From contig CAJXTB010000006.1 of the NCBI GenBank assembly GCA_913061235.1, positions 186,001-250,000 on the forward strand: a DNA stretch of 64,000 nucleotides, written 5' to 3'. Of this stretch, positions 3,437 to 45,009 are shown in pieces. The notes beneath the pieces are model-generated. The model saw only the letters and a list, made by a program, of their open reading frames with translations, was not told the origin of the DNA and searched no databases. Position numbers and translations under genes: made by a program. The stretch is from an uncultured Pseudomonadota bacterium (GTDB lineage: Bacteria > Myxococcota_A > UBA796 > GCA-2862545). Each line of letters opens with the position of its first letter. The first letter of the stretch is position 1.

Positions 3437-3515
3437 ACCGTCCGCTCTCCCTAAAATGGGCAGGCCTGAGGAGTCTCGCGCACGTTCGTGGTTGGCTGTG
3501 GACAACGGGCTCGGA

Positions 3516-3845
3516 CTACGACTGGCGAAGCTCGCGCACTAGGGCGTCGGTCTCTTCATCAATGGAAAAGTCACGGTCACCCCAAGACATCACGGGAACG
3601 GGAGTGCGTGCTGGAGCGACACGTCGCAACATCGGTGTGTCCATTGTCGTCAAATCCACCCAGGACTCGGCACGCATGATCCCTGACAATGCGCGGGGGT
3701 CGGTGCGCAGACCGGGGATCGCAGCAAACGCAGGCTGGCGGTTGTCGCCGTCAATATGCCAAAGAAATCGCAAGGTTCCCGTTACGGCAAAACCGTTGAT
3801 CAATGCGGCGAAAACGGTGAGGATGACAACGGCGGTGAGGGTCAT
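3516..3845 (-). CDS. Small single-pass membrane protein of unknown function
   Basis: The product is 109 residues. The ATG at 3845 is chosen because AGGAG stands 5-6 bases before it; the in-frame ATG at 3866 and GTG further upstream lack such a site. Residues 3-30 form one hydrophobic segment (LTAVVILTVFAALINGFAV). The rest is soluble, with a C-terminal part rich in Arg, Asp and Glu. No known family is evident. It is divergent from the PLP-lyase operon, with about 130 bases between the starts, so the two may share a regulatory region. The hydrophobic N-terminus, Shine-Dalgarno and placement support a real gene. Confidence 0.6.
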   Translation of the reverse strand: MTLTAVVILTVFAALINGFAVTGTLRFLWHIDGDNRQPAFAAIPGLRTDPRALSGIMRAESWVDLTTMDTPMLRRVAPARTPVPVMSWGDRDFSIDEETDALVRELRQS

Positions 3846-3976
3846 GTGTGCTCCTGCTTGACTCATGGTCGTTACCAAAATGATCACCTTGAGGCGTTTT
3901 TCGCCCATGCCGAACGCCTGCTCGACACTGACAGCGTCTTCGGCTATCCAATCGTTCGATTAAATTGGGGACTTCC

Positions 3977-5427
<1,451 letters not shown>

Positions 5428-5431
<4 letters not shown>

Positions 5432-6951
5432 GCACCAAACGCATTGGTCTGGTTCGAATTGCCCAAGAGAGCAACGCGTTCTCGCCGCTGGCGTCCGAGC
5501 TCGACGACTTCGACCGCACCCACTTCTTTGAGGGTGCCGAGCTGCAGGCAATCTTGGAGCCGAACGGAACCGAGGTCGAAGGCTTTCTGAAGAATGCTGA
5601 GCTGTCCGGTGCGCTCAAGGCCATCCGCGAACACGGCGACGACTCTATCGAGGTGGTTCCGCTGTTCAGCTCGTGGGCCATGCCTGGAGGGCCGCTGTCG
5701 CCGGCTGCACTCGCAGGGTTGAACGACCGCTTGCGTGATGCCTTGCGTGCCGCTGGACCCCTGGATGGACTCCTGTTCTCCATGCACGGCGCCATGGTTG
5801 CCGAAGAAACCGATGACCCCGAAGCGTTCTTCATGCAGACCGTGCGTGCAGAGTGTGGAGACGACCTCACCGTCGCTGTTTCGCTGGACCTGCACGGTCA
5901 GATGACCAAGGCGTTCATCGACCAGATCGACATTCTCGCCGCCTACCGTACCAATCCGCACCGTGACCACGCCAAGACCGGCTACCGAGCGGGTTCGATG
6001 CTTGTGCGTGCGCTGTTGGGTCAGATCACACCCGTCCTGGCCTGGCGAACCCTGCCCATGGTTCTGGGCGGCGGTACGACCATGGACTTTCTGCCGACGA
6101 TGCGGCCGATCTACAAGCACCTCAACCGCATTGAGCGTGACGACAAGGTGCTCGACGCCAGCGTCTTCAATTGCCACCTGTGGGCGCGGCATGCGGACAT
6201 GGGCTGGAGCACAGTCGTCATGGTCGACGGTGACGCATCCCTCGCTGAGTCGCTTGCTGACGACGTCGCAGACCGTTTATGGGGCGTTCGTCACAAGCAA
6301 CCGCCTATTTTTCCCGAGGCCGCTGAGGCGATCGAGCAGGTGCGTGCAAGTCGCCTACGACGCAAGCTCGGTACGGTCTGCATGTGCGACGCGTCGGATA
6401 TCGTTGGCACCGGCACGGTCGGCGAGAACACGCGACTGTTGCGTGCGCTGGTGGAAGACGCCGCAGACCTCATCTCGTATGTGCCGATTCGAGACGCTGG
6501 CGTCATTGAAGAGCTTGCTGAGACGGTCGTTGGCTCGACCGTCACGGTCGAGTTGGGTGGACGGCTAGACCCAGAGAACCCCGTTTTCACAGTGACGGGC
6601 CGCTTGGCCATGCGCACCGAACACGACACGTTTGGCCGCATGGTCGTGCTGACGGTCGGCAACACGTCCATTGTTGTGACCGAGCGTGCCTGTCTTGTGA
6701 TGAAGCCGCAGTTCTACTCGGAGCTGGGCTTGTCGACCTGGCGAGCCGATGTCGTCGTCGTCAAGAGTATGTTCCCGTTCCGCCTGTACTTCTTGCTGCA
6801 GAACCGTCGGACCATCTACGTCAAGACACGTGGCGCTTCAGACCTGGACCGGGTGAAAGAGCTCACCTTCAATGCGCCGGTACATCCGCTGCATCCTGTG
6901 GACCACTGGCGTCCGGAAGATGCGCGAAGGCGTGGTGGACTGCCGGTCTGA
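5428..6951 (+). CDS. M81 family metallopeptidase (MlrC-like)
   Basis: The 507-residue product matches the MlrC/M81 family, named after a zinc enzyme of microcystin-LR degradation. Family features visible are the N-terminal RIGLVRIAQESNAFSP, the MHGAMVAEETDDPE block, LDLHGQMT, and NPHRDHAKTG, which together supply the histidine and acidic metal ligands. The C-terminal domain follows the MlrC C-terminal pattern (CDASDIVGTGTVGEN). There is no signal peptide. Most M81 members have unknown substrates; they are thought to hydrolyse small linear peptides or amide compounds. The start ATG overlaps the stop of the PLP lyase (ATGA), so the two are translated together. A shared pathway, such as turnover of an amide-linked lipid, is inference only. 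The gene ends just before a strong hairpin. Confidence 0.85.
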
Positions 6952-29385: not shown

Positions 29386-32300
29386 TTGCACAATTTCACC
29401 GTCAAGCCGCCGCCCATTACGGAGGACCCCGACACCCAGCCGCCGGCATCGGATGCGGACACCAAGCCCCTAAAAGACTCGTTGACGGACAATCTACAGT
29501 CCGGCAACCAGGTCGCGGCCGCACCCTCTCCAAATACACCCGACACGCCCGACGACGCGCTCATCAAGGCCTACCGCACGCTCCGAAAGGACGAAGACGC
29601 CGTTGCGGCACACCAGAACAGCGCGATCAAGCCCGTTGAGGACGCCGCCGAGCGCGAGACGGCAGAGGCAGAGGCAGACCAGCAACACGCCACAATCGAT
29701 GCCATCGCACACGACAATTCCAGTGGCCTGTTCAAGAAGAAGCGTGCGGAACGCGACACGAAGACCGCAACCCGACTGGGCCTGTTCGACGATCAAGCCG
29801 CGCCGCGCCTGACGGCAGCTGGCGTTGGGGCGCTTGGGGACGCAAATCCAGGCGACCGCGCAGTCATTCTGGCGCGAGTGGATGCATGGGCGAACCGTCG
29901 GATGTTCCAAGAAGGACAGCCGGTCACTGAGCTCGCGGTCAAAGCGATTACCTCCGACCTGACCGCCCGCTTCCTGACAGGTCGTGCCCTTCAAGCTTGG
30001 CTGATGCGCTTGGGTACCTACTGGGCGCACTTCCAGGTGGACCGCCTGCCGCGCAAGGAACGCAAGGCGCTCAAGCAGCAGGATGCCGACGCCCACGACA
30101 CCTACCGGGCCGACCGCAAGCTGACGCGGCGCGGGCGGTTTGATGACTCTGGAGCCGGAGAGGCGCTGCACAAGCTACAAAATGCGTTTCGGGCCAAAGA
30201 CAAAAAGCAGGATGCCGGCCCTTCCGTCGACACGATTGCGACGCTGTCGGGGATGGGGTCCGCTGCAGACAGACTTGAACGTCCAATCCTGCGTCAGGTA
30301 GCGGGCGCGCAGTCCCGCGAGGCCCCGGTTCTGGTGGGTTCTGGCATCGATTCCGTCAAGACCGTCGACAGCGCCACTACAGCCATCTCACCAGCACTGC
30401 TCGATATTGGCCTTTCAACACTCCCATCCGTTGATGCCGCACCCGTTCCAGCAGACGTCGCTCAAGGGGCCGATGAGGTCGTGCAGTCCGACAACGTCGC
30501 GGCAGCTACCGAAGCACCAACCGACCTCGAGCCGTCCCAGTACGTCACCGCGGCCTTCCCAGGTCTCATTGAGCTCACGCTTGGAATTCACGCCGAGGCC
30601 TCCCACACAAGTGCTCGACTACGAGATGTTCGGCTGGGTGACCGGGTCGGAATCACAACCGAAACGCAGACAATAGACGGACGTCTGTGGGTGCAGGCGC
30701 TGATCGAAATCCCAGAGGAGCCCGACCGCCTCGGCTGGCTCGACGCTGGCTTCACTGACTTCAGCGATCAAGAGACGTCCGAGGTACCGAAGGCCGACGC
30801 GGCCCCAGCGGGACTCACGGTGAAGGGGTGGCTGCGTGCCCTCGACCCGCAGGCGGCGCTGCCGTGCTTCATGGGTGTGTACGACGAGCAGACTCGCACC
30901 CCCATCACCACCGTGGCGGGGGGCTCCGACTGGCGTACGCTGTTGGCCGTGCACCCGATGACCGGAGACACCGACCCGGACTTCCACGAGATGTTGGTGG
31001 ACGGTCGACCGCGCTACGCCCCCAGGAACAAGCTGAGGGAGGCCACCCAAGAGGAGCGATGGGTTCACGAGGACCAGCTCACTGCAAAGCAAATCGGCCA
31101 GGTGCGTCAGTTTGCCGTCACGCAGCCCGAGCATCTGCGAGCTGCCTTTTTCGAGCGACTCGCTCAACTCCCGGCCGAGCACGCTGCGGCAGAGTCAACC
31201 GCCGCGCGCAAGGACGCCCACAGCACCCTGAGTACGTTGGCCGGCGCATTTGAGCTGCTCGGCTTCCCACAGCCCTACGTGCAAGCCAAGTCGTACGCCG
31301 ACGCACTCGAGCTCGTGCGTCTTGAACTGGGTATCGAGGCCATCGTCGACAGCAGTCAGGTGGCGAGCCTTGTGACCGCATTCGGGGTTGGCAACGACAC
31401 TGTGGACACCGGGGAGGCCATGCCCGCACTCCGCAGCGGCAATGCGGTGGTCGCTTGGCATGATGGCGCGCTCATCCGCCTCGTCGGTCAAGAGGGTACA
31501 ACACTGCGAATCGAGGACGCCAAAGGACGAAGAGACGTCCCCAGTGCAGACCTTGAGCAAACGTCCTGGTTGGCGCTACAGCTCGCAGCAGACGTCGACG
31601 CCGGCACGGCCGAACGAACCCGCGTTGCCATCGACGGCGATGAGGTGATGGAAGCCTACAAGACCTCTGTGTACGCCATCTCATCAGATGCCGAACAGGA
31701 CTGGTACCTTGCCCAGTCCGCCTCGGTACACGCCGCTCAGTCCAAGGACCTCAAGTCCTGGCTTCCGAGCGGTGCTGATGCCGCGGCCATGCCTGATGCC
31801 GCTCAAGACAAGGCACTGCGCGACTGGAATAAGCGAAACGGCACGGGCACCATCGCTGCCATCGTGAAGACGAAGACGCAGTTCGTTGACCCGCTCAAGG
31901 CAGCGGGTGGAAGCCGAGCGACCGCGATGGAGACAACACTCAAGGCAATGGCGCGCGTCGTGCTCGACGGCCACATGCACCACGCCCCTGGCGACGATGC
32001 GCACAGCAACGCCATTGCAGCTATCGCCTTGGCCACCGAGTCCGGGCTTATCGACGCGACGCTATCGGCCAAGTACACCACTTGGGCGGAGGACCTGGTC
32101 CCCGTGCCAACCGGACCAACAGCCTCGGACTTCGACCAACTCTTCCAAAACTCTGCCTCGAAACAGGCCACGCCAGGTGCCGTGAACAGCGTGACCGTCG
32201 CCGGCGCATTGACCTTGACCGACAAAAGCGGGGCCGCGACGGACGGCACAGGCAACGCAAGCGCATCGCGTGAGGTGAGCGGTGCATGGGGCAACGTCGA

Positions 32301-35300
32301 AAACACAGTCAACGCGTCGAATTGGAATACCAAGGCCAATGACAAGAACGGCAAGAAGCAGTCCTACAAGATGCGCGGCTGGGCCACCCAGACCAATCAA
32401 ACCAAGATTGATGGCGACAAGCTTGACCAGGGAACGCTCGACGAAGGCTCGCTGATGGCGCTTGGTATGGACCCCACCAGTGCGCGAATCGCACAGGTGC
32501 GTTCGCTCATGGAACCCGGCTCACCCATCAATGCCTACGACGGCCAATACGTGTCGATGGCCTTCAATCAACTCACCTTCACCGACAGCGGCAACGGCAG
32601 CAACGCGATGGAGATGATCGGTCGCGTGCTGTACTCGTCCGGCACGACGATTCGGCCCGAGTGCCAGGACCTCGTCGACGCCCTCGGCAGCCAGGGGATG
32701 ACCGTCGTCGAGATGGGGAAGGGCTACTCCTTCTCGCTGATCGACCCCGACCTGGGGACTATCGGCGCGAGCGACGGCTGGACCCGCTCGGACTTGCAGA
32801 CGCTTCACAAGGCCGGCCGGTTCATCTTCCCCGAGGGGCAAACCGTAGAACAAGCCATGGATGCGAATGAAGCGGTCCTCGCTGGCAAGGTCAAAGACGG
32901 CGTGCACCTGAACAACCGCGCCGAGCTGGCGCTCCGCTACGACCCGGGCAAGCTCATCGCATTGTCCGCCATCTTCGCCGATCCGCGAATGCAGGCCGGC
33001 GCAGGTATCAACTACAAGGTCGAGTACATCGACCGCGCCGCACAGATCAACGTGCTCGGGAATCGCTTGGTGGACTACCCCATCAACGAAAAAGTACTCG
33101 GGTTTGCGACCAAGCTCGCCAACAGCGCTCCTGCAAGCGCAAACGCTCTGGTCCCGCAGACCTTCTTTCGCGCAGCAGCGCTAGACGACGCCATTCTGGA
33201 CCCCACAGGATGGTCGGGGAAAGAGGCCTTGTTCAACGAGCGATTGTTGATGGTCATCTCGGGTCGAGGCCTCAGTGGGACCGCACCCGCCAGCATGGAC
33301 CCCAAGAAGGCGGCGGCCGCCAAGGCGGCGTGGTCGGGTGCTGCCGGAGCGACGAAGATCGGTGGTACAGCGATCAGCACCCTGCCAATCGACGACGATA
33401 ACCAGCAACTGTTGGGAGGCCTGCACAACGAAGACAGCTCCACCTTCTCCGGGTCCGTCAAGGGCTTCTTCAGTGACGCGGGCTTGCTCAGCGACGGCAA
33501 GCCCAGGAGCTGGACGAACAAGGAAACCCGGTACAACAACGAACTTCGACACGAACTGTCGTCGCGGGCATCGCAGGCATGGCAAGACGAGCAGCGTGCC
33601 GCCATGAAGGCCGGCGGAACGTGGACGTCGAGCATTTCGGACAAACCTTTGTTCGGTAGCCCGATGAGCAAGTACGGATTCGACGAGGCAACGCAGAGTG
33701 TCATCGCCGGCCTCGCCACTGCGAACGCGGACTTCTTCAACCGAATGGTCGAACAGGCGCTCATCTTCTCTACAGCGCCGCGCACTGCCGACAAGTGGTC
33801 CGCCGCCTCGACGAAGAAGCGGCAATCGTACAACACCTCTCTTCGGAGCAAACTCAATAACGGCGGAGTCACCGCGGGATACGACCGCCAACAGGGCCGC
33901 GCCCAGGACTGGCTCGACGTTGCCCGCGAAGCCGAAGCTCAAGGCGTGGTCTTTGCTGACAAAGTGCAGTGGACCAAGGGCGGCTCCTTCGACAAGGTTG
34001 GCGACATCCAGGGCGCACTCGATGCTCCGGAAGCGTCCGCATCCGTCGGGCCAAAGGTGAACAAGGCCCCGGTGTCCATGCCCATGAACACCCTCATTGC
34101 GTTGGGACACGACCTCGAACAACCCGATACTGCAGCACTTGTCGAGGCCGTCTACAAGTCGGATGCGGGACGACTCGCACTCGGTACTTACCTAGCGCCC
34201 ATCGCGAAAGAGCTGGCCCTGTTGGCCATCGAAGACGGCCTGGACCTCGGTGCGATGGTCGATGGCAAGGGCTTCGCTGAAACGCTCTTGGTGTTCGGTG
34301 CGCAAGCCCTCCGGTACGAACGCCGCGACCTGCTGGACCAACTGGGACTGGCCACACAGGTCGCCATCGCGGTGGGGCAGCGCTACCCCGACCTCGTGAG
34401 CAGCGCTGGGCACGCAGCGTCACACGGCTCCGATGACACACATGACGACCATCCCGCATCGTATACAGCCAACAACAACACCGGTTCGAATATCGATGCC
34501 ATCGTTGCTGCCAATGCCGCATCCAAGGTGGGAGACTTCGACCCAAGCGCGGTAGCCGACCCCAAGGCATTCCTTTCGGTCACACCCGACAACTACATTC
34601 AGGGCAAAGAAGGCCACCGTGGCAAAGGTGAGTCCACGAATACGATGGACCTGTACGGCCACAAGGGGACCGATGGCACGCTCGGACGCACGTCCAACGG
34701 CAAGATCATCAAGACGGACTTCAAGTCCGACGAAGAGTACTACGCCGCTCTCGACGCCTTCTACGGGACCCGGGACGGCAAAGCGGCAACCGCTAGGACG
34801 GACAAACAGAAGGACCTGCTCGAGATCGCGCGCAAGGCCGCCCGGGACGACGGGTTCTTCCTACAAGTCAGAAACAACAGCCCCAAGGCCCAGGCTGCAA
34901 CACTCGATTTGTCGGGTGCCATGAGCAAGAATGAACACTTCACATTCCATCCAGAGCTTCGGAAGCGGGCGGAGCGCTTTCACATCTTCAACGTGGCGGT
35001 CGGCCTCTACAGCAAATCGCATCTGGCTATTGGCGAAGACGGCGCACTGCGCAGTCAGCTGGTAGCGCACCGCTGGGCAGTGGAACACGTGGTCGCAAAG
35101 AGCAGTTCCGGCAAGAAGAACATCTGGAAAAAGGTCCTGGCCGGCGCGAAAGCCGGCACGCACATCAAGGGGGCGGACATCGTCGATGCCCATGGTTTTG
35201 TTTGGGGCCATACCAAACACTTCGTCAACGCGGAGGGGGAGACGGTCTCCCCCAATGACCCAACGCTCGATGAAGCGAAGAGTAAGAGCGGCATCATCTC

Positions 35301-35592
35301 GTACATCGACAGCTTGAACCTGCGCAGCAACAAGAAGAAGAGCGCGGCGGAGGGCTGGGCAGATGACGAGGTGAAGCGTTGGCCAAACGAAAAGAAGGGT
35401 TGGCCGTACAGAAGCCCCCATATCGTCGGCGATGCTATCGACTGGAATAGTCACGCCTTCATCAACCGCGATGACGCTATCATCGACTACGTAGCCATGG
35501 AGTTCGGCCTCGTGCGACGCGCCGGCGGCGAACAGTGGCACTTCGAGCGAACAGGGCGCCCGGTCGGCGAAGCGCCAATGAATGAGGACTAG
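29386..35592 (+). CDS. Giant multidomain protein with C-terminal M15 peptidase domain
   Basis: The frame is open from GTG 29287. TTG 29386 is preferred because GAGAGG lies five bases before it and third-position GC rises sharply there, giving about 2068 residues. There is no signal peptide or membrane helix. The first 130 residues are disordered and Pro/Asp/Thr-rich. Helical segments follow, with an SH3-like module near residues 385-455 (LTLGIHAEAS, LGDRVGI, GRLWVQALIE). The middle 1300 residues are unassigned and Ala/Asp/Lys-rich. The end is an M15 (VanY/DD-carboxypeptidase-type) domain: SPHIVGDAID around residue 2010 supplies H and D zinc ligands, and GGEQWHFE around 2049 supplies the catalytic Glu and the third ligand. 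The substrate would be peptidoglycan peptide stems. Size, lack of a Sec signal and disordered N-terminus suggest export by a specialised route or release on lysis; this is inference, since no secretion genes are nearby. Confidence 0.78.
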   Translation: MHNFTVKPPPITEDPDTQPPASDADTKPLKDSLTDNLQSGNQVAAAPSPNTPDTPDDALIKAYRTLRKDEDAVAAHQNSAIKPVEDAAERETAEAEADQQHATIDAIAHDNSSGLFKKKRAERDTKTATRLGLFDDQAAPRLTAAGVGALGDANPGDRAVILARVDAWANRRMFQEGQPVTELAVKAITSDLTARFLTGRALQAWLMRLGTYWAHFQVDRLPRKERKALKQQDADAHDTYRADRKLTRRGRFDDSGAGEALHKLQNAFRAKDKKQDAGPSVDTIATLSGMGSAADRLERPILRQVAGAQSREAPVLVGSGIDSVKTVDSATTAISPALLDIGLSTLPSVDAAPVPADVAQGADEVVQSDNVAAATEAPTDLEPSQYVTAAFPGLIELTLGIHAEASHTSARLRDVRLGDRVGITTETQTIDGRLWVQALIEIPEEPDRLGWLDAGFTDFSDQETSEVPKADAAPAGLTVKGWLRALDPQAALPCFMGVYDEQTRTPITTVAGGSDWRTLLAVHPMTGDTDPDFHEMLVDGRPRYAPRNKLREATQEERWVHEDQLTAKQIGQVRQFAVTQPEHLRAAFFERLAQLPAEHAAAESTAARKDAHSTLSTLAGAFELLGFPQPYVQAKSYADALELVRLELGIEAIVDSSQVASLVTAFGVGNDTVDTGEAMPALRSGNAVVAWHDGALIRLVGQEGTTLRIEDAKGRRDVPSADLEQTSWLALQLAADVDAGTAERTRVAIDGDEVMEAYKTSVYAISSDAEQDWYLAQSASVHAAQSKDLKSWLPSGADAAAMPDAAQDKALRDWNKRNGTGTIAAIVKTKTQFVDPLKAAGGSRATAMETTLKAMARVVLDGHMHHAPGDDAHSNAIAAIALATESGLIDATLSAKYTTWAEDLVPVPTGPTASDFDQLFQNSASKQATPGAVNSVTVAGALTLTDKSGAATDGTGNASASREVSGAWGNVENTVNASNWNTKANDKNGKKQSYKMRGWATQTNQTKIDGDKLDQGTLDEGSLMALGMDPTSARIAQVRSLMEPGSPINAYDGQYVSMAFNQLTFTDSGNGSNAMEMIGRVLYSSGTTIRPECQDLVDALGSQGMTVVEMGKGYSFSLIDPDLGTIGASDGWTRSDLQTLHKAGRFIFPEGQTVEQAMDANEAVLAGKVKDGVHLNNRAELALRYDPGKLIALSAIFADPRMQAGAGINYKVEYIDRAAQINVLGNRLVDYPINEKVLGFATKLANSAPASANALVPQTFFRAAALDDAILDPTGWSGKEALFNERLLMVISGRGLSGTAPASMDPKKAAAAKAAWSGAAGATKIGGTAISTLPIDDDNQQLLGGLHNEDSSTFSGSVKGFFSDAGLLSDGKPRSWTNKETRYNNELRHELSSRASQAWQDEQRAAMKAGGTWTSSISDKPLFGSPMSKYGFDEATQSVIAGLATANADFFNRMVEQALIFSTAPRTADKWSAASTKKRQSYNTSLRSKLNNGGVTAGYDRQQGRAQDWLDVAREAEAQGVVFADKVQWTKGGSFDKVGDIQGALDAPEASASVGPKVNKAPVSMPMNTLIALGHDLEQPDTAALVEAVYKSDAGRLALGTYLAPIAKELALLAIEDGLDLGAMVDGKGFAETLLVFGAQALRYERRDLLDQLGLATQVAIAVGQRYPDLVSSAGHAASHGSDDTHDDHPASYTANNNTGSNIDAIVAANAASKVGDFDPSAVADPKAFLSVTPDNYIQGKEGHRGKGESTNTMDLYGHKGTDGTLGRTSNGKIIKTDFKSDEEYYAALDAFYGTRDGKAATARTDKQKDLLEIARKAARDDGFFLQVRNNSPKAQAATLDLSGAMSKNEHFTFHPELRKRAERFHIFNVAVGLYSKSHLAIGEDGALRSQLVAHRWAVEHVVAKSSSGKKNIWKKVLAGAKAGTHIKGADIVDAHGFVWGHTKHFVNAEGETVSPNDPTLDEAKSKSGIISYIDSLNLRSNKKKSAAEGWADDEVKRWPNEKKGWPYRSPHIVGDAIDWNSHAFINRDDAIIDYVAMEFGLVRRAGGEQWHFERTGRPVGEAPMNED

Positions 35593-36563: not shown

Positions 36564-37814
36564 CTAGCCATCCTTCGCGAGTCGGAAGCCCTTGAACTGC
36601 CAGCGGTCAGCCGGGTAGAAGAAGTTCCGATACGTGGTTCGTAGGTGTGACAGCGGCGTGGCACAAGACCCACCCTTGAGCACCAGCTGACTGGCCATGA
36701 ACTTGCTGTTGTACTCGCCAAAGGCGCCTTCTGGCGCGCGGTAGCCGGGGTAGGGCGCGTATGAGGACTGAGTCCACTCCCACACATCGCCAATCGCTTG
36801 GGTCAGCCCGGTTCCACTGGCCACGCGAGGGGCGTAGCGCTTGTTCTCCACCAGGTTGTGCTTGGCGGTGATGGGCCGGTCACCGAAGGCGATTTCCCAC
36901 TCGGGCTCGGTTGGAAGTCTGGCGCCGCTCCACAAGGCGAAGGCCATCGCTTCGTACCAGCTCACGTGGCAGACGGGCTCGTTGGGGTCCAGGTTGCGCA
37001 GACCACCCAGGGTGAACTGTGCGTAGCCGCCGGCACCATCGGGCCGCCAATACAGCGGGTGTGCAATGCCTTCCTTCTTCACCCAGTGCCAGCCGTCGTA
37101 CATCCACCAACGGAAGTCGGTGTAGCCGCCGGCGTTAATGAACTCGAGGAACTCACCGTTGGTGATGAGGCGACTGGACAGCGAGAACGGGCGGACCAAG
37201 ACGTCATGGCGCGGCGTCTCGTTGTCGAAGGCGAAGCGGTCAGCGGACAAGCCAGGACCGTCGTGGCCAATCTGCTGGATACCGCCGTCAAAGTCGTGCC
37301 AGGTCATGTCGGGTGCGGCGTGCTCAGAGGGTGGCGCTAGCGGTCCGTAGGCAGGGTCCATCACGTTGACCGCGAAGTTTGCGAGGGTGTCCGTCAGAAT
37401 CAGCTCTTGGTGCTGCTGTTCGTGGTTGCAGCCCAAGGCCACAATGTTGGCAATCTCCGGCGTAGATGCCGTCGTCAACAGCTCGCTGACGGCGTCAGTG
37501 ACGTGCTTTCTGTAGGCCAGGACATCACGCAGGAGCGGGCGTGACAGGTCGCCGCGCTTGGCTCGGTCCTGCCGCTTGCCGACCATCTCGTAGTAGCTGT
37601 TGAAGACGAAGCTGAACTTTGGATGGAACACGGTGTAGTTGGGTACTTTGGGGCCGAGCAGGAACGCCTCGAAGAACCACGATGTGTGTCCTAGATGCCA
37701 CTTAGGCGGGCTTGCGTGCATGGCGACCTGAAGCCCTGTGTCTTCTGGCTCTAATGGAGCCACCAGAGCTTCGGTCTGCTCACGTACGGCTCGAAACGCG
37801 CTCACTGGGTCCAT
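36564..37814 (-). CDS. egtB: EgtB-like iron-dependent sulfoxide synthase (DinB plus FGE-sulfatase)
   Basis: The protein has 416 residues from ATG 37814, preceded by GGAGG at five bases; the longer frame to 37952 has no such site. The N-terminal DinB-like domain provides the iron histidines in WHLGHTSWFFE (H40/H43) and NHEQQHQELILTD (H131, H135), matching the EgtB signature. The C-terminal domain is of the formylglycine-generating-enzyme type (VCHVSWYEAMAFALWSGARL, LPTEPEWE, LKGGSCATP, RTTYRNFFYP). In ergothioneine synthesis EgtB joins cysteine or glutamyl-cysteine to trimethyl-histidine with oxygen. No EgtD-type histidine methyltransferase is in the window, so the partner is elsewhere or the substrate differs. 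It is the last gene of a four-gene minus-strand operon, 22 bases after the MFS gene. Confidence 0.88.
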   Translation of the reverse strand: MDPVSAFRAVREQTEALVAPLEPEDTGLQVAMHASPPKWHLGHTSWFFEAFLLGPKVPNYTVFHPKFSFVFNSYYEMVGKRQDRAKRGDLSRPLLRDVLAYRKHVTDAVSELLTTASTPEIANIVALGCNHEQQHQELILTDTLANFAVNVMDPAYGPLAPPSEHAAPDMTWHDFDGGIQQIGHDGPGLSADRFAFDNETPRHDVLVRPFSLSSRLITNGEFLEFINAGGYTDFRWWMYDGWHWVKKEGIAHPLYWRPDGAGGYAQFTLGGLRNLDPNEPVCHVSWYEAMAFALWSGARLPTEPEWEIAFGDRPITAKHNLVENKRYAPRVASGTGLTQAIGDVWEWTQSSYAPYPGYRAPEGAFGEYNSKFMASQLVLKGGSCATPLSHLRTTYRNFFYPADRWQFKGFRLAKDG

Positions 37815-37836
37815 GTCTGCCTCCGGGACCTGTCGC

Positions 37837-38982
37837 TTAGCCGACTGCGGTGTGACGTGACCGCCGCAAGGCGACCGGGGCGAGAACGAGTGCCGCGAGA
37901 GCCGAAGCCATGCCACCGGCGTAATACAAGGAAGCAGGGGTGTGATCGGCAAGAATCACCCAGGCAATCGGCACCGCCAACAGAGGACCGATTCCAAAGG
38001 CTGTCGCCGTCAACACTGCCTGTGCAGACCGCGCGACAGACGGACTGGAGTGACGTGCGAAGGCCGGCACAGCGGCAACCCAGAACAGGCCAAAGGACAG
38101 GCCGTGGAGCGACTGAAGGGCAATGAGCAGCGTGGCGTCTGTGACCGCTGCGGTTCCGAGCCAGCGGGGGACGGAGGCCAAGAACGCAAACAGCAATAGT
38201 CGAGAGGGCCGCACGCGGTCGAGCAACCACGGAGACATGGCCATTACCGCGACTTCTGTACCCACGCCGACCACAACAACGGTTCCCATGACGCTGCTCG
38301 GCAGGCCAATCGTCTCAATGTGGCGGGCCATGAAGTTGTTGTAGAACGTGAGCGAGAGTCCGTGAAGAATGCACGCAACTGTGAGCAGCGCGCTTGTGCC
38401 CCGGGCGAAGACGGCGACGAGCTCGGACAGCTTGGGTTTGGGCACGCGCTTGTTGGTGTGCGGCAGCATGCGGCTGCTGATGATGGTGCCGCTGAGCAGG
38501 ACAGCGCCGATGACGATGGGACCGACACCCCAGACGGTGCGCACCCAGCCGGCTGCATAGGCGACGACGAGGAAGGCCACGGACCCCCACAGTCGAACGC
38601 GTCCGTAGTCGCGGCCACCGTTGCCAAGGCTGCGCAGTGCGAGGGCGTCGACAATGGGGGTTTGAGGCGCCCGTGAGATGGCGTACACCGCGAGGCCAGC
38701 CACGAGGAAGAGCGGATGAACGCTTGCAGCGAGCAGGCCCAAGCCAGCTGTGGTTCCGACGGTGGTGACGGTGAGCAGTGTGCGTGCGGTGCCGTGACGG
38801 TCGGCAAACCACGACCATGCCGGTGCGGCGAACAGCGCTGCGAGGGGTAGCAGCGCCATGTACAGCGCGATGTTCTGGTCGCTGACCCCCTTGTCGGCCA
38901 ACACTGCGGATAGGTAGGGAATCGCGCCGAGCGCACCGACTGCACTGACGTACCAGAGCACCAAGCGAGCACGCGTACTCAC
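37837..38982 (-). CDS. MFS transporter, MFS_1-like (HcaT/NupG-type) subgroup
   Basis: This 381-residue integral membrane protein has 12 predicted hydrophobic segments. The N-terminus LVLWYVSAVGALGAIPYLSA and the loop SWFADRHGTAR after the second helix fit the short MFS_1-like subgroup that includes the HcaT and nucleoside/H+ symporters. The RAPQTPIVDALALRS motif in helix 4-5 and GRVRLWGSVAF are also typical of it. Substrate is unknown. The GTG start overlaps the stop of lnt by four bases (GTGA), so translation is coupled. Sharing an operon with EgtB raises export or import of a small thiol or betaine, which the sequence does not test. Confidence 0.85.
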   Translation of the reverse strand: MSTRARLVLWYVSAVGALGAIPYLSAVLADKGVSDQNIALYMALLPLAALFAAPAWSWFADRHGTARTLLTVTTVGTTAGLGLLAASVHPLFLVAGLAVYAISRAPQTPIVDALALRSLGNGGRDYGRVRLWGSVAFLVVAYAAGWVRTVWGVGPIVIGAVLLSGTIISSRMLPHTNKRVPKPKLSELVAVFARGTSALLTVACILHGLSLTFYNNFMARHIETIGLPSSVMGTVVVVGVGTEVAVMAMSPWLLDRVRPSRLLLFAFLASVPRWLGTAAVTDATLLIALQSLHGLSFGLFWVAAVPAFARHSSPSVARSAQAVLTATAFGIGPLLAVPIAWVILADHTPASLYYAGGMASALAALVLAPVALRRSRHTAVG

Positions 38983-40367
38983 CGCTTACGACCCACGATG
39001 ACGAGGGTGCTCAGACCGACCAGCAGCGAAATCCAGGTGCCGAGCGCTGCGGGATTCCACGGCAGCCGGCGCTTTCGCACGGAGACGACGGCGGAGCCAG
39101 GGGTATCGAGCCTTGCTGCAACGCGGCCTGTGGGTGTCAAAACCACCGAGTGACCGGTGGGTGTGGCTCGCACGGCCCAGCGCCCGGTCGTGACAGCGGC
39201 AAAGCGCGCCGCATCGAGGTGGTGGGCTTGTCCCATTGGGCCCAGCCAGACGTCACTCGACGGCAGAGCGAGTACGTCTGTTGACGCGGAAACGGTGGAG
39301 ATAGCAAGGGGCAAAACGTCTTCCCAGCACACCAGAACCGAGATGCGCGTGCCCGAAACGAACACGTCACGGCTGTTGGAGCCGGCCGCATAGCGCCCTG
39401 GCATGCCCAACGCTTCACCTTCAGCGAATGGAATCAAGAAGTGCTTATCCACGCGCTCAGTGACCTGTCCGTCTTCGATGAGGGCAACGCTATTGTAGAC
39501 GGTTCCGCCGTCGGTATTGCCGCCCAACAGCACAGGCGGATGGCCTGCCCAGGCATCTAAGAATGCAGTGCGGCCTCTGTCGGTGCGGCCAAGCGCCCAC
39601 GGCCATGCCCCTTCTGGCGTGAGCACCCAGTCGGCGGGGAGATGGGTCGCTTCGAGCAAGAATGCCGCGCGGTCCTCAGCGGTTGAGGGCCGTCGCGCGT
39701 CGAATCCATCAACACCCGTCTGTACTAGGCCCACGGTCACAACGTCACCTGACCAGTGAACGAAGACGCGGACGGTGAGCAGCCAGAGCAGTGCGGTCAG
39801 CGTCCAGCTTCGGCGGTCGCGTCCGCTGCCAAGAATGGCTCCGACAAGCCCTGCGAGCAGCGGTCGTCCTGCAATGCCAGCGGGTCCAAGGATGGGCCAG
39901 GCCTGGGCGAGACCGGAAGTAAAACCAAGTGGAATCGGCAGTACGCGACAACTTGCCTCACCGAGCAGCATCCCGATGCCTAGGGCGACTGCTGGATGGA
40001 CCTCTCGTCGTCGCAACACCCCGTTGACCCCAAGCGCCACAGCACCCGGCAGAGCGTGAACGAGGCTCACGAACAGCCACGCGCCCAGACCGCCATCGCC
40101 GGCGTAGCCAGCCCATGCAGCGGGTATCCAGCGTAGGGAGACCGCTGCGGCCAGACTGGTGATGATGCCGCCACGCAGCACATCTCCGCGCCACGTTGAC
40201 CCCTGAGCCTGCGTCAAACACACCAACCCGGCGATTGTGAAGACGGGAATGGCCCATGAGGGCGACCCAATGCCGAGCAGCAGACCCGACGCGAGGGTCA
40301 GCCCCCACAACCGAAGGAGGGGCTGGTCACTCGGGTGCGGGGGGACAGTCTCCACACTCGCTTGCAC
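38979..40367 (-). CDS. lnt: Apolipoprotein N-acyltransferase
   Basis: The protein of 462 residues transfers an acyl chain from phospholipid to the N-terminal cysteine of lipoproteins in the inner membrane, the last step of lipoprotein maturation. It has an N-terminal group of membrane helices, a nitrilase-like periplasmic domain (about 210-435) and a final membrane helix (LGTWISLLVGLSTLVIVG). The Glu-Lys-Cys triad is intact: E252 in TPEGAWPW, K308 in DKHFLIPFAEGE, C347 in VLVCWED. The many lipoproteins in this window would be substrates. GTG 40367 overlaps the upstream gene by 41 bases; shorter starts are possible because the first 18 residues are not conserved-looking. Whether this is the only Lnt of the cell is unknown. 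Confidence 0.88.
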   Translation of the reverse strand: MQASVETVPPHPSDQPLLRLWGLTLASGLLLGIGSPSWAIPVFTIAGLVCLTQAQGSTWRGDVLRGGIITSLAAAVSLRWIPAAWAGYAGDGGLGAWLFVSLVHALPGAVALGVNGVLRRREVHPAVALGIGMLLGEASCRVLPIPLGFTSGLAQAWPILGPAGIAGRPLLAGLVGAILGSGRDRRSWTLTALLWLLTVRVFVHWSGDVVTVGLVQTGVDGFDARRPSTAEDRAAFLLEATHLPADWVLTPEGAWPWALGRTDRGRTAFLDAWAGHPPVLLGGNTDGGTVYNSVALIEDGQVTERVDKHFLIPFAEGEALGMPGRYAAGSNSRDVFVSGTRISVLVCWEDVLPLAISTVSASTDVLALPSSDVWLGPMGQAHHLDAARFAAVTTGRWAVRATPTGHSVVLTPTGRVAARLDTPGSAVVSVRKRRLPWNPAALGTWISLLVGLSTLVIVGRKR

Positions 40368-42657
40368 AATCGCTCCACAGGGTCTTGGACACGTCGCTTA
40401 GTTCGGAGAGCACGGGGTTGCCCTGTTGGAGCAACGTCACGCACATACTGAAGCGCCCGATGGACAGCGCCTGTTCGGCGGCAATGTGTGCGGCACGCGG
40501 TGTGAGTTGCCCGCTAGTAGCCAGGTCTTGAGCCACTTCGACGGCGCGCTCTGCAGAGACATGCATGGCCGCGTCAACAGCGAGTGCGGAGGTGCGCGCA
40601 ATATCGGGGAGTGCCGCTGCACCCTGAAGATACGTCAGCACCGCTTCTTCAGGACGCCCCCACGTGAGCATCAGCTCGCCGCGAACCCAGTAATAGTTGG
40701 GGTTGAGGCGACTGTGTTCGGCACACGCATCGAGCCACTCTTCGGCACCGCGCGGGTCTCCAATAGCGTTGAGGGCCTGGGCGCGGTCGGGTACCCAGTG
40801 GTAGTTCTCGTCCAGCGTAGCAGCGAGCTCGTAGGCCAGTACTGACGAGCTGTCGTCGCCTCGACTGTGCAGGAGCTGACCGAGTGCGGCGAGCCATGGC
40901 GCGCGGGCTTCGCCCAGGGCATCCACCCAAAACAACCCGACCGGGTAGGCATCGTAGCCTTCGGCGAGAGGCGCGCCGTAGTGACGGCCCCAGGGCCAGC
41001 GAACGATGGCATCTGCCCAGGCTTGGGCGCTGGCTTGTGGGTCTGTCTGACGTTGGGCTCGTGCGAGCAATGCCCAGGCTCGGTAGTCACCAACGTCGCG
41101 CTGGGTAGCGCGTTGTAGGGCAGCAATGGCGTCTTCGGGTTCACCCACAGTCAGCAGCAAGGCGCCGGAACGTCTCAGGGTTGCAGCGTCATCCGGGAAT
41201 CGCATGATCAGGTGACGTGCCCGGTCAGCCCGCTCGTCGCCGTCTGCCAACCATGCCAACGTGATGTCGGCTTCAGGACGCCAAGGGGCAAATGTGGCCA
41301 CGCGATTCGCAGCGCGGCGTGCCACTTCTGGCTGTTCTTCGTAGGTCAGGGTCTGCGGGAGGGCGTGGTCGACCACCGCCCCTCGGATTCGCCAGCCCAC
41401 CGCAGCCACTTGAACAATGAGCAGCGCAATGAGCCACCGACGCACGGCGGGCGGGCGAGTCTTGGACGACTGTCCGAAGCCGCCGCGATGCACACCAATC
41501 GCCGCGGCAAACACCACCAACATCCCTGGAATGTGGGGTGCAAAGTCGACGAAGGCGTGAATACTGGCCGCGAGAATACCCAGACCCCACCACGCGGCAC
41601 GGTTGCTGGGCTGCACGCGCGGAAGCAGCCACCAGGCGAGTGCAGCGGCGGCAATGCCCACAATTCCGGTCTCGACCATCCACTGCAAGGGCTCGCTGTG
41701 TGCGTGCGTAAACTCTTGGAAGGTCAGAAGGGTTCGGTAGGGCTTGTAGGCGGTTGCGTAGGTGCCAGCGCCTGAGCCGAATAGCCAGAACTGCGACAGC
41801 ACGGTGGGTTGGTCTACGTACTGTGCGATTCGTGGGTCAAACGATGACTCTCGCCAAGACGTCTCCACTTGCGTGACCCAAAAAACGGCAGCAGAGCCGA
41901 GTCCGACCACCCCTGCTGTCATGCCGGCCGCGAGTCCTGGGCGGTCGCGAACCATGCGAGCGGCGATGTACAGACCGACCAACAACACCGCCAAGACCGC
42001 ACCCCCGGAAGCGAGTCCGGCGAACAAGAGGCCGCCTGCAATGGTGACGACGCCTGCGAACAGACCGTAGCTTTCTTCACGGTGTTGTACGGCTTCACCC
42101 AGGGTTACCGGAAGCAGGAGCAACAGTACAGAAGCGAGGTGGTTGGGGTTGACCAGGGGGGCAAAGAAGCGCGCCGGAGGATGGGTGAGGGGAATCACGC
42201 CGAACAGCGTCTGGAGTCCCAGCGCAACGTGAAGGGTGGCGACTCCACAAACCACGGCAACGCCGATGACGGCTGCAAACGCAGAACCACTTCGTCCGCC
42301 ACGCTGGGCAGACCACAGACCCGTTGTTGTGGCGATGGTGAGCGCTAGTGACCCGGTCAACAGAGCGGCGAAGGTTCGTTCGGGAGACAGCGACAGCGAC
42401 GACCACCGGGCATCGGGGAAGGCGTCATGCACGCCAGGAGAGACCCACTGGAGCACCGCACTGGGCATGGGCAACAGTCCAATGGCCGCAGCACCCAGCA
42501 TCACCGTTCCGGCGAAGAACAGTTGCTGCATTGCGCCCGCACGTCTCAGGCTCTTGTCCGGCAAGCGAATGGCCATGACGAGAGCAACCGCAGCGAGTGC
42601 ATGGGCGATGGCAAGTTGCCAGCTGTGCACGGAGCCCAACAACAGCAGTGTCGTCAA
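40327..42657 (-). CDS. O-antigen ligase/polymerase-like membrane protein with TPR tail
   Basis: The protein is about 776 residues. Residues 1-440 contain about 12 membrane segments with the Wzy_C (O-antigen ligase) signatures VNPNHLASVLLLLLP and, in the large periplasmic loop, FTHAHSEPLQWMVETG. Residues 450-760 are soluble and TPR-like (for example LRRSGALLLTVGEPEDAIAAL). WaaL/Wzy-type proteins with TPR tails link or polymerise surface glycans or modify pilin. TTG 42657 has no Shine-Dalgarno. The frame stays open upstream with a basic leader (GTRKRRKWLGRA); CTG 42711 sits after GGAGGGAGAGGG and may be the true start, adding 18 residues. It heads the operon with lnt, the MFS gene and egtB and is divergent from the Wzc-like gene. 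Confidence 0.82.
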   Translation of the reverse strand: MTTLLLLGSVHSWQLAIAHALAAVALVMAIRLPDKSLRRAGAMQQLFFAGTVMLGAAAIGLLPMPSAVLQWVSPGVHDAFPDARWSSLSLSPERTFAALLTGSLALTIATTTGLWSAQRGGRSGSAFAAVIGVAVVCGVATLHVALGLQTLFGVIPLTHPPARFFAPLVNPNHLASVLLLLLPVTLGEAVQHREESYGLFAGVVTIAGGLLFAGLASGGAVLAVLLVGLYIAARMVRDRPGLAAGMTAGVVGLGSAAVFWVTQVETSWRESSFDPRIAQYVDQPTVLSQFWLFGSGAGTYATAYKPYRTLLTFQEFTHAHSEPLQWMVETGIVGIAAAALAWWLLPRVQPSNRAAWWGLGILAASIHAFVDFAPHIPGMLVVFAAAIGVHRGGFGQSSKTRPPAVRRWLIALLIVQVAAVGWRIRGAVVDHALPQTLTYEEQPEVARRAANRVATFAPWRPEADITLAWLADGDERADRARHLIMRFPDDAATLRRSGALLLTVGEPEDAIAALQRATQRDVGDYRAWALLARAQRQTDPQASAQAWADAIVRWPWGRHYGAPLAEGYDAYPVGLFWVDALGEARAPWLAALGQLLHSRGDDSSSVLAYELAATLDENYHWVPDRAQALNAIGDPRGAEEWLDACAEHSRLNPNYYWVRGELMLTWGRPEEAVLTYLQGAAALPDIARTSALAVDAAMHVSAERAVEVAQDLATSGQLTPRAAHIAAEQALSIGRFSMCVTLLQQGNPVLSELSDVSKTLWSDCASECGDCPPAPE

Positions 42658-42888
42658 TACCGCAGCAGCAATGGCCCGTCCGAGCCACTTTCTACGTTTA
42701 CGCGTTCCCAGACCCTCTCCCTCCGGCGCTACTCTACCGGTTGTTGTTGCGGATTGTTGTGTGTCGAGTCCTCATGATCCTTGGCGCGAAGATTCCTTGC
42801 CGATTTTAGTGAAGGCTTGCGAGTCAGCGAACACGTAGTGCCGGACCCATCTGCATTCGGTTACGCGCGCAATGGACGGGAGCTCCTT

Positions 42889-45009
42889 TTGGCAAATGAC
42901 AGTGATAATTCCATATTGTCCAGATTCTCCCTGGCCGAAATCATTCCGATTCTTCGGGCGAATCGCTGGTTGATTGTGCTGTGCACGCTCGGTGCGTTCT
43001 CCATGGCGTTCGTCGGTACGCTGATGACGACCAAGCAGTACCAAGCCACCTCGATTCTGCAGTTGAACCCGTCCAATGCCAAAGAAGTCAAGGTAGACGA
43101 CGTTGTCGACTTTGACATCCGTGGCATCTACGAGACTGAGCGCTTTTACCGGACTGAGCTGGCGCTCATGCGTACTCGGACGACCGCCCTTGAGGTGATT
43201 CGTCGCTACAACGACCTTCAGTACGACGACCTGACCATCGAGAAGGGCGTGCCTCGGTTGCTCGGCATGCTCACAGTGTTCCCACGTGAACGCAGCAGCT
43301 TGATTGAGATCTCGATCACAAGCCCAGACCCGCACAAAGCGGCTCTGCTCTCCACGTTGTACGCCCAGGCGTACGTGGACTTGAACCTCGAGTCTCGTCG
43401 TTCAGCGAGTCGTGAAGCCAAGGTGTGGCTTGAGACCAAGATTGAAGAGTACGAGCTGAAGGTTGCTGCTTCCGCCGCTGAGCTCATTGAGTTCAAGCGC
43501 CAACATGACGTTGTAGACCTTGAAGACACCGTCACGGCTGTGTCCGAGCGCATGGACGAGATTGACGAGCGCTACGGCCGCGTCAGTACCGACCGCCTGC
43601 TGCTCACCACCAAGATGGCCAGCTACGACGAACTGCTCGCTCAGAACAAGGTGGCCGAGCTGGCCGAGGTTCTGGGAACGCCTACGCTGTTGGCGTTGTC
43701 TCGCATCTATGCCGAGGCCCGCACCGACCACGCAACGGTGGGGGCACGTTACGGCGAGCGTCACAGCCGCTACCAAGAGTCGGCCGCTACGTTGACCCGG
43801 ATTCGTGAAGAGCTGCGTCGTGAGGTGAGCTCCGCCGTTGAGGCCGAGCGCGCTCGGTTGTCGTTGTTTCAGGCAGAAGAGACCAGCTTGCTCGACGAGA
43901 TCGATGCGGTGCAGGAGTCTTTGCTCACCCGTCAGGGGTTCCAAGCTGAGTTCGACCAGAAGCGCTTGGCCTACGAGCGCAGCGAAGCGTTCTTGCGGCG
44001 TCTGTCCCTGCGCAGTGATGAGCTGTCGTTGTCGTCGCGCACACAGCTCAACAATGCACTGCTGCGTGAGCCGGCCCGGGTTCCAACAGGACCCATCTCG
44101 CCAAACCTCTTCCTCAACTTGCTTGTAGGTCTGTTTGCCGGTGCCGGTGCCGGGTTTGGTCTGGCCTTCTTGCGCCACTCCATTGACGACAGCATCTCGT
44201 CGCCAGAAGACGTCACCAACTTCTTGGAAGTTCCGTTCCTGGCCATGGTTCCCAAGGTGCAAGCACCGCCGGGCGTCAACCCCGACCTCATCACCTACAC
44301 GGACCGTCGCGGCTTGGCTGCCGAGTCCGTACGTGGCCTGCGGGCCTTGTTGGAGATGAACCCGAATGGCCGAAAGGTTCAGCGCCTGTTGGTCACCAGT
44401 GCCGTGGCCTCAGAGGGCAAGACGAGCATGTGTGTTCGCCTTGGCATTGCGTACGCCGAGTTCGGCCGTCGCGTTCTTCTGATCGACGCCGACCACCATC
44501 GTCCGCGCGCTCACAAGGTGTTCAAGATGGAGAACAACCTGGGCGCTCTCGACATCATGCGCGGTCAGTGCTCCATTACAGACGCCGTCATGCCCACCGA
44601 GATTCCCCACGTGGACTTGTTGTCGCTCGGCGCCCGCGGTGCAGATGCTGCACGACTGTTCGCCTCGGACGACTTCATTACGCTCGCTGACGAGCTGCAA
44701 GAGCTCTACGACTTGGTCATCATTGACACGCCGCCGTCGGCAACGTTGTCTGAAGCCATCCAGCTGTCGCCGCTTGCGGACGGAGTCATCTTCGTGGTCC
44801 GTGCCGGCAAGGTGTCTCGTCGCGTTGTGCGTCACACCGTCGACCGCTTCAAGAAGGTGGACGCGCGCATCTTGGGCGTGGTCATCAATGATGTCGAACC
44901 TGTTGCTACCGGTGCCTACGGGTACTTGTACGGCTACAAGTATGGCTATGGTCCATACGGCGCGCCGAGCGACGACGACGATGCCGAGGACCAGCAGGTC
45001 GCTGGATGA
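42889..45009 (+). CDS. Wzc-like polysaccharide co-polymerase and tyrosine autokinase
   Basis: The protein is about 706 residues. TTG 42889 is chosen because GGGAG lies six bases upstream; the frame extends to 42781 without a ribosome-binding site. The first membrane helix (LIVLCTLGAFSMAFVGTLM) follows a short N-terminus, then a Wzz chain-length domain with a long periplasmic coiled coil. The second helix (LFLNLLVGLFAGAGAGFGLAFL) leads to the cytoplasmic BY-kinase: Walker A ASEGKTS, Walker A' LLIDADHHRP, and Walker B DLVIIDTPP. The C-terminal tyrosine cluster (YGYLYGYKYGYGPYG) is the usual autophosphorylation site. It controls chain length and export of the polysaccharide together with the Wza-like protein. 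Its last codons overlap the next gene (ATGA). Confidence 0.92.
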   Translation: MANDSDNSILSRFSLAEIIPILRANRWLIVLCTLGAFSMAFVGTLMTTKQYQATSILQLNPSNAKEVKVDDVVDFDIRGIYETERFYRTELALMRTRTTALEVIRRYNDLQYDDLTIEKGVPRLLGMLTVFPRERSSLIEISITSPDPHKAALLSTLYAQAYVDLNLESRRSASREAKVWLETKIEEYELKVAASAAELIEFKRQHDVVDLEDTVTAVSERMDEIDERYGRVSTDRLLLTTKMASYDELLAQNKVAELAEVLGTPTLLALSRIYAEARTDHATVGARYGERHSRYQESAATLTRIREELRREVSSAVEAERARLSLFQAEETSLLDEIDAVQESLLTRQGFQAEFDQKRLAYERSEAFLRRLSLRSDELSLSSRTQLNNALLREPARVPTGPISPNLFLNLLVGLFAGAGAGFGLAFLRHSIDDSISSPEDVTNFLEVPFLAMVPKVQAPPGVNPDLITYTDRRGLAAESVRGLRALLEMNPNGRKVQRLLVTSAVASEGKTSMCVRLGIAYAEFGRRVLLIDADHHRPRAHKVFKMENNLGALDIMRGQCSITDAVMPTEIPHVDLLSLGARGADAARLFASDDFITLADELQELYDLVIIDTPPSATLSEAIQLSPLADGVIFVVRAGKVSRRVVRHTVDRFKKVDARILGVVINDVEPVATGAYGYLYGYKYGYGPYGAPSDDDDAEDQQVAG

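Follow-up and report, generated by a model that had tools for sequence, protein, structure and literature searches.

The window considered here (the whole 64-kb stretch of DNA that was analyzed) carries the gene P0001, the parts and immediate surroundings of which are listed in Table 1. A first-pass annotation had described its product as a leaderless protein of roughly 2070 residues, and this description holds: the open reading frame was confirmed from 29287 or 29386 to 35592 on the forward strand, hydropathy analysis gave no Sec-type hydrophobic start, and no transmembrane segment was found (no 19-residue hydropathy value above 1.6). TTG29386 is the likelier start when compared with GTG29287, and GGAAGAGAGG lies just 5' of it. 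Full-length P0001 gave no significant match in Pfam, NCBIfam, PHROGs or the PDB sequences. The first 35 residues have a Kyte-Doolittle sum of -38.1, the lowest among the 35 window ORFs compared. One aromatic residue is found within the first eight, and the net charge of residues 6-21 is negative rather than positive.

Table 1. Positions of the P0001 gene, its recognizable parts and the two flanking genes within the window
Feature	Position	Strand	Residues, basis or remarks
Regulator with two Trans_reg_C matches and an NB-ARC NTPase, 5' of P0001	26186-28957	+	Domain matches
Whole gene P0001	29386-35592	+	2068 aa from TTG29386; alternative start GTG29287, 2101 aa
N-terminus, hydrophilic, probably disordered, candidate loading signal	29386-29838	+	Hydropathy; EAT features in PMC11297309
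Region weakly common to the G028 and G037 carriers	29839-30249	+	Sequence comparison
Two SH3-like repeats	30547-31011	+	Residues ~421-575; profile A5 against PDB, SH3_3 in G210 relative
SYADALE domain	31216-31656	+	Also in G210 and G265 proteins
Central NAYD domain, tentative lysozyme/GH46-like glycosidase	32338-33276	+	Residues ~1018-1330; common to G028 and G231
Conserved Glu, residue 1076	32512-32514	+	NAYD domain
Conserved Asp, residue 1085	32539-32541	+	NAYD domain
Last stretch common with the G028 carrier (RAQDWLDVAREAEAQG...)	33898-34059	+	Alignment
Divergent M15-like domain	34714-35589	+	~290 aa, residues ~1810-2101, C-terminal; family alignment and profile
SPHIVGDAID, first M15 zinc motif (His and Asp)	35413-35442	+	Motif and alignment
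GGEQWHFE, catalytic Glu and third zinc ligand His	35524-35547	+	Motif and alignment
Predicted lipoprotein (MRRLTLAALSLSMIAGC...), single copy, directly 3' of P0001	35769-36434	+	Sequence

The lipoprotein gene that follows P0001 was considered as a linked immunity gene. No relative of it occurs near the P0001-relative loci in any locus compared, and it is therefore a candidate immunity protein only; a search for such a gene, proposed in the first-pass annotation, thus produced a single-copy candidate which is not conserved beside the relatives. On the 5' side, the Trans_reg_C/NB-ARC protein possibly regulates P0001. It bears no significant similarity to a TPR-rich regulator-like protein elsewhere in the genome (L022, contig C46, 201-2507), the gene of which is located 54 bases 5' of one for an eCIS_core protein (2562-6767, same strand). 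Elsewhere in the window, a DinB_2 and FGE-sulfatase protein (36564-37952) has the architecture of EgtB/OvoA-like sulfoxide synthases, and polysaccharide genes at 40327-45009 include an O-antigen ligase/Wzy_C gene with TPRs (-) beside a Wzz/ParA-type chain-length protein gene (+).

Relatives of P0001 are kept at the protein level, and the different regions of the protein were found to have different sets of them. No relatives were found in phages (with the C-terminal query), plasmids or viral contigs. The last ~280 residues have relatives in six of the 379 genomes of the phylum (G235, G014, G242, G192, G117 and G165), with E-values down to 2.7e-10 and with G165 as the weakest counted (0.001); weak matches in G232 and G280 were left out of the family count. 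These sequences lie at the C-terminal ends of proteins of 610-842 aa that have no leader, save for that of G165, a 316-aa fragment, and SH3-like parts are visible by eye in several of the proteins. An alignment of the seven sequences shows no variation at any M15 motif residue or at an Arg and a His farther upstream, while identity to P0001 is 23-28%. The pattern S.H..G.A.D...E.WH.E arose in none of 2000 shuffles of P0001, and across 1.56 million residues of translated frames it is restricted to this family. The M15 zinc and catalytic residues reported in the first-pass annotation, within SPHIVGDAID and GGEQWHFE, are therefore genuine. A search of viral contigs for the pattern H..GDAIDW gave 8 loci, mostly unrelated, two of which are distantly M15-type.

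No curated M15 model scored above its cut-off in any of the seven family members. The last 201 aa of P0001 gave a sub-threshold match to Peptidase_M15_4 (E=0.036, 15.1 bits against a cut-off of 25). With the family profile the best matches among solved structures were three M15 D-Ala-D-Ala carboxypeptidases (5hnm, 6a6a and 5zhf), aligned locally and in register, yet with weak E-values of 0.065-0.11. P0001 shares with these enzymes the upstream Arg and the order of S.H..G.A.D followed by E.WH. It differs from them in that its Arg/His motif and first zinc motif stand ~90 residues farther apart, that it scores below every library cut-off, and that the domain is placed at the end of a 2068-aa chain. 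A single-sequence AlphaFold2 model of the domain was discarded (pLDDT 33). Because the library matches are below cut-off and the structure-profile E-values reach just 0.065-0.11, we call the domain divergent M15-like, and by its motifs it is a putative peptidase.

Upstream of this domain P0001 resembles a different group of proteins. A scan of genome contigs for relatives returned G028 only (also record CAJXRZ010000010.1), which encodes a leaderless protein of 1988 aa that aligns to P0001 residues ~424-1590 (E 3e-62, 27% identity), with a weaker common stretch before. The N-terminus of this protein is not especially hydrophilic, unlike that of P0001, and its C-terminus is unrelated; the motifs DCVGFAW and SDSHIIVIYD, read by eye and with no Pfam match, suggest an NlpC/P60-type cysteine peptidase at this end. 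The third carrier, in G037, ends at a contig edge, leaving two complete carriers, and within the order the carrier part was found in 3 of 63 genomes. Smaller portions recur separately. Profile A5 matches the bacterial SH3 domains 2krs (4.4e-5) and 2kq8 (0.002) across the second SH3-like repeat, and the G210 relative has an SH3_3 match. The G210 and G265 proteins, 443-536 aa in length, have only SH3 repeats and the SYADALE domain. A 2407-aa protein of G231 (L047:4145-11368) has just the NAYD domain in common with P0001 and combines it with PG_binding_1; by eye it also holds a cysteine-peptidase-like part and two similar 'LLTHG...LFACN' segments. Because the G028, G231, G210 and G265 relatives share different parts, P0001 is best described, on sequence comparison, as a module chain in which a carrier bears an exchangeable C-terminal end. 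Of the ~1300 residues that the first-pass annotation left as unknown sequence, part can now be recognized through the relatives (the SH3-like repeats, the SYADALE domain and the tentative glycosidase).

P0001, G028 and G231 all retain the Glu, Asp, Ser and Thr of the NAYD motif. In the G028 version (EDGEGSDVNAYDKVYASFGLNQNT) the spacing E0-D11-S16-G18-Q21-T23 equals that within the GH46 domain of L118 (EGGGYASIQTKDVGVVSYGKHQAT), an eCIS_core protein; this GH46 domain is firmly assigned (Pfam 3.5e-13, with chitosanases as PDB matches). In P0001 the distance between Glu and Asp is two residues shorter than in either of these. Direct comparison of the NAYD and GH46 profiles was weak (hhalign 2.7%), and an AlphaFold2 model of the domain from two sequences was discarded (pLDDT 38). 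We tentatively propose, as a hypothesis, that this domain with its E-D-Q-T motif may be a lysozyme/GH46-like glycosidase.

The first-pass annotation stated that no secretion genes lie in the window. This stands for eCIS genes, none of which occur within the 64 kb, the nearest eCIS_core being ~58 kb away; the genome nevertheless encodes an eCIS elsewhere. P0001 is located on contig C6, while an eCIS operon with a GPD hub, a CIS_tube protein with LysM, a gp19 tube protein and two sheaths is located on C1, and additional sheath matches are found on C17 and C22. The search outside the window thus found an eCIS operon and no sheath of the type VI secretion system (VipB/TssC), for which an E. coli control was positive. 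Between the gp19 tube and CIS_tube/LysM genes of the operon lies a gene for an Arg/Ser/Ala-rich protein of 1430 aa with no Pfam match (L139:2972-7264, C1:132972-137264), possibly a tape-measure protein or a cargo. eCIS_core has nine matches on eight contigs of this genome, most of them encoded away from the operon, and two of the proteins have wall-type enzyme parts. One (L024:4361-5875, C19) is leaderless, with 504 aa, eCIS_core, two PG_binding_1 and NlpC/P60. In the other (L018:4073-12091, C5; 2672 aa) two eCIS_core domains flank an M15-like part, SWHKTGRAFD...EWWHYE, which is below the Pfam cut-off, and the C-terminus is calpain.

P0001 itself has no eCIS_core (DUF4157). None of its domains was fused directly to eCIS_core in 74 eCIS_core ORFs, which come mostly from the genome of P0001 and those of its relatives. 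The connection that sequence comparison does suggest is indirect and takes two steps, from an M15 relative through a common domain to an eCIS_core protein. The M15 relative L067 shares 170 residues with L118 (phmmer 2e-20), and weaker similarity to L118 is seen in pieces of L070 and L068. L118 (L118:5660-10363, C35 of G235; 1568 aa) contains two eCIS_core domains, PG-binding, GH46 chitosanase-like and SH3-like parts and a possible cysteine-peptidase part. Of the 12 carrier genomes 11 have sheath genes, compared with 69 of 142 genomes across the phylum (Fisher 0.0015); outside the class the figures are 7 of 8 carriers and 41 of 113 (0.006). Some carriers are part of the 142-genome sample, the genomes are akin to one another, and sheaths were present in each of the 29 close relatives examined in the order sample; for these reasons the enrichment is only suggestive of a link to eCIS. 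The M15 gene of G235 lies ~6 kb from an eCIS_core gene; since a genome has ~ten eCIS_core genes and the carriers are several, this proximity may be chance and we set it aside.

Our preferred reading, in which we place somewhat less than even confidence, is that P0001 is a leaderless, modular antibacterial effector that cuts peptidoglycan and travels as an orphan cargo of the eCIS. It would probably be loaded in the cytoplasm into the producer's own eCIS, freed by lysis of the producer, and injected into the envelope of a target. There the SH3 repeats may hold the target wall, while the M15 domain at the C-terminus would cleave peptide portions of peptidoglycan and the central domain possibly its glycan. 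The substrate, enzymatic activity, tube loading and target in this account are inferred, whereas the gene, its missing leader, the M15 residues, the exchangeable end, the eCIS operon, the absence of a T6SS sheath and the two-step domain link are observations. This reading draws on the M15 motifs invariant in seven proteins and their weak profile fit to M15 carboxypeptidases, on the swapped C-terminus of the G028 carrier, on the eCIS operon and nine eCIS_core matches (two with wall-type enzymes) in the same genome, on the domain common to L067 and L118 together with the sheath enrichment, and on an N-terminus that is the most hydrophilic of those compared in the window, with EAT10 as a precedent. 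Against it, 2068 aa is very large for a tube cargo; there is no eCIS_core, no fusion among the 74 ORFs and no eCIS gene in the window; the sheath enrichment is confounded by kinship, and no immunity gene is conserved; and the N-terminus of the G028 protein is not especially hydrophilic, while residues 6-21 of P0001 are net negative. The contractile delivery suggested in the first-pass annotation has thereby gained an operon in the genome, a two-step domain link and a sheath enrichment, but neither a fusion, a place in the operon nor a proven loading signal.

Published eCIS-associated toxins (EATs) provide the nearest comparison. A hydrophilic N-terminus has been reported for them (PMC11297309), and EAT10, a verified EAT, is a leaderless peptidoglycan hydrolase without DUF4157 (PMC8213781). 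Antibacterial eCIS toxins often have no immunity gene, and release of eCIS requires lysis (PMC8213781). Like the EATs, which may or may not carry eCIS_core/DUF4157 (PMC8213781, PMC11297309), P0001 is leaderless, with a hydrophilic N-terminus, long linkers and a C-terminal enzyme, and it shares with them a genome that has eCIS, a domain link (here in two steps) to eCIS_core proteins and the frequent absence of an immunity gene. It differs in having no eCIS_core, in its distance from the eCIS operon and in an M15-like domain which no library names. P0001 and the G028 protein resemble polymorphic toxins (PMC3482391) in having a common carrier with differing C-termini (M15-like in one, cysteine-peptidase-like by eye in the other); P0001 differs in that no trafficking or pre-toxin domain was recognized and no immunity gene is conserved, and the complete carriers number two.

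Other explanations share some of this evidence. Fairly unlikely, in our estimate, is that P0001 is a bacteriocin-like wall-lytic weapon or predation protein freed by producer lysis alone, with no injection machine. The missing leader and eCIS_core, the lack of a nearby machine, and the combination of wall-type domains, SH3 repeats and swapped C-termini would all agree with this. However, the protein would have to cross the outer membrane of a Gram-negative prey unaided, no receptor-binding or translocation domain was recognized in it with Pfam, NCBIfam and PHROGs, and both the sheath enrichment and the eCIS_core domain link would be coincidence. We judge it less probable again that the C-terminal domain has no activity or a substrate other than peptidoglycan, in which case it might serve for binding or as a self-processing peptidase. 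Its similarity to M15 is distant, no library names it above cut-off and its structure model is unusable, yet the zinc ligands and the catalytic Glu are all invariant at such low identity, which speaks against this reading.

P0001 could also act on its own producer, from the cytoplasm or the envelope, either by contributing to lysis (perhaps so that eCIS particles escape) or by remodeling the producer's wall; we consider such a self-directed role decidedly improbable. The requirement of lysis for eCIS release and the lack of a conserved immunity gene would suit such a role, but no holin-like or export partner is seen beside the gene, the protein is rare in the phylum (the 3 of 63 order genomes with the carrier part) whereas sheaths are common, and exchangeable C-termini are better suited to a weapon. 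In the last reading P0001 is an effector of a type VI secretion system; such systems are known to use large wall-lytic effectors with several domains. VipB/TssC is nevertheless absent from the genome of P0001, from G028 and G037, and from the other carriers except G242 and G117; with the genome 99% complete and the control positive, this reading is largely refuted for the genome of P0001, and we give it hardly any weight.

If P0001 is indeed an orphan eCIS cargo, it could further represent a class of cargo without eCIS_core and encoded away from the operon, in which a chain of ~2000 aa with a central glycosidase and an exchangeable peptidase would let a single injected molecule cut both glycan and peptide; we regard this broader proposal as unlikely. 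High expression of eCIS has been reported for uncultured marine Myxococcota (PMC11937823). Were P0001 an eCIS cargo, the usual markers, eCIS_core and proximity to the operon, would miss effectors in large environmental genomes, and the M15-like module would serve as a tag for finding such effectors. P0001 would then offer a specific example of what eCIS, for instance those of the marine Myxococcota, may deliver against other bacteria.
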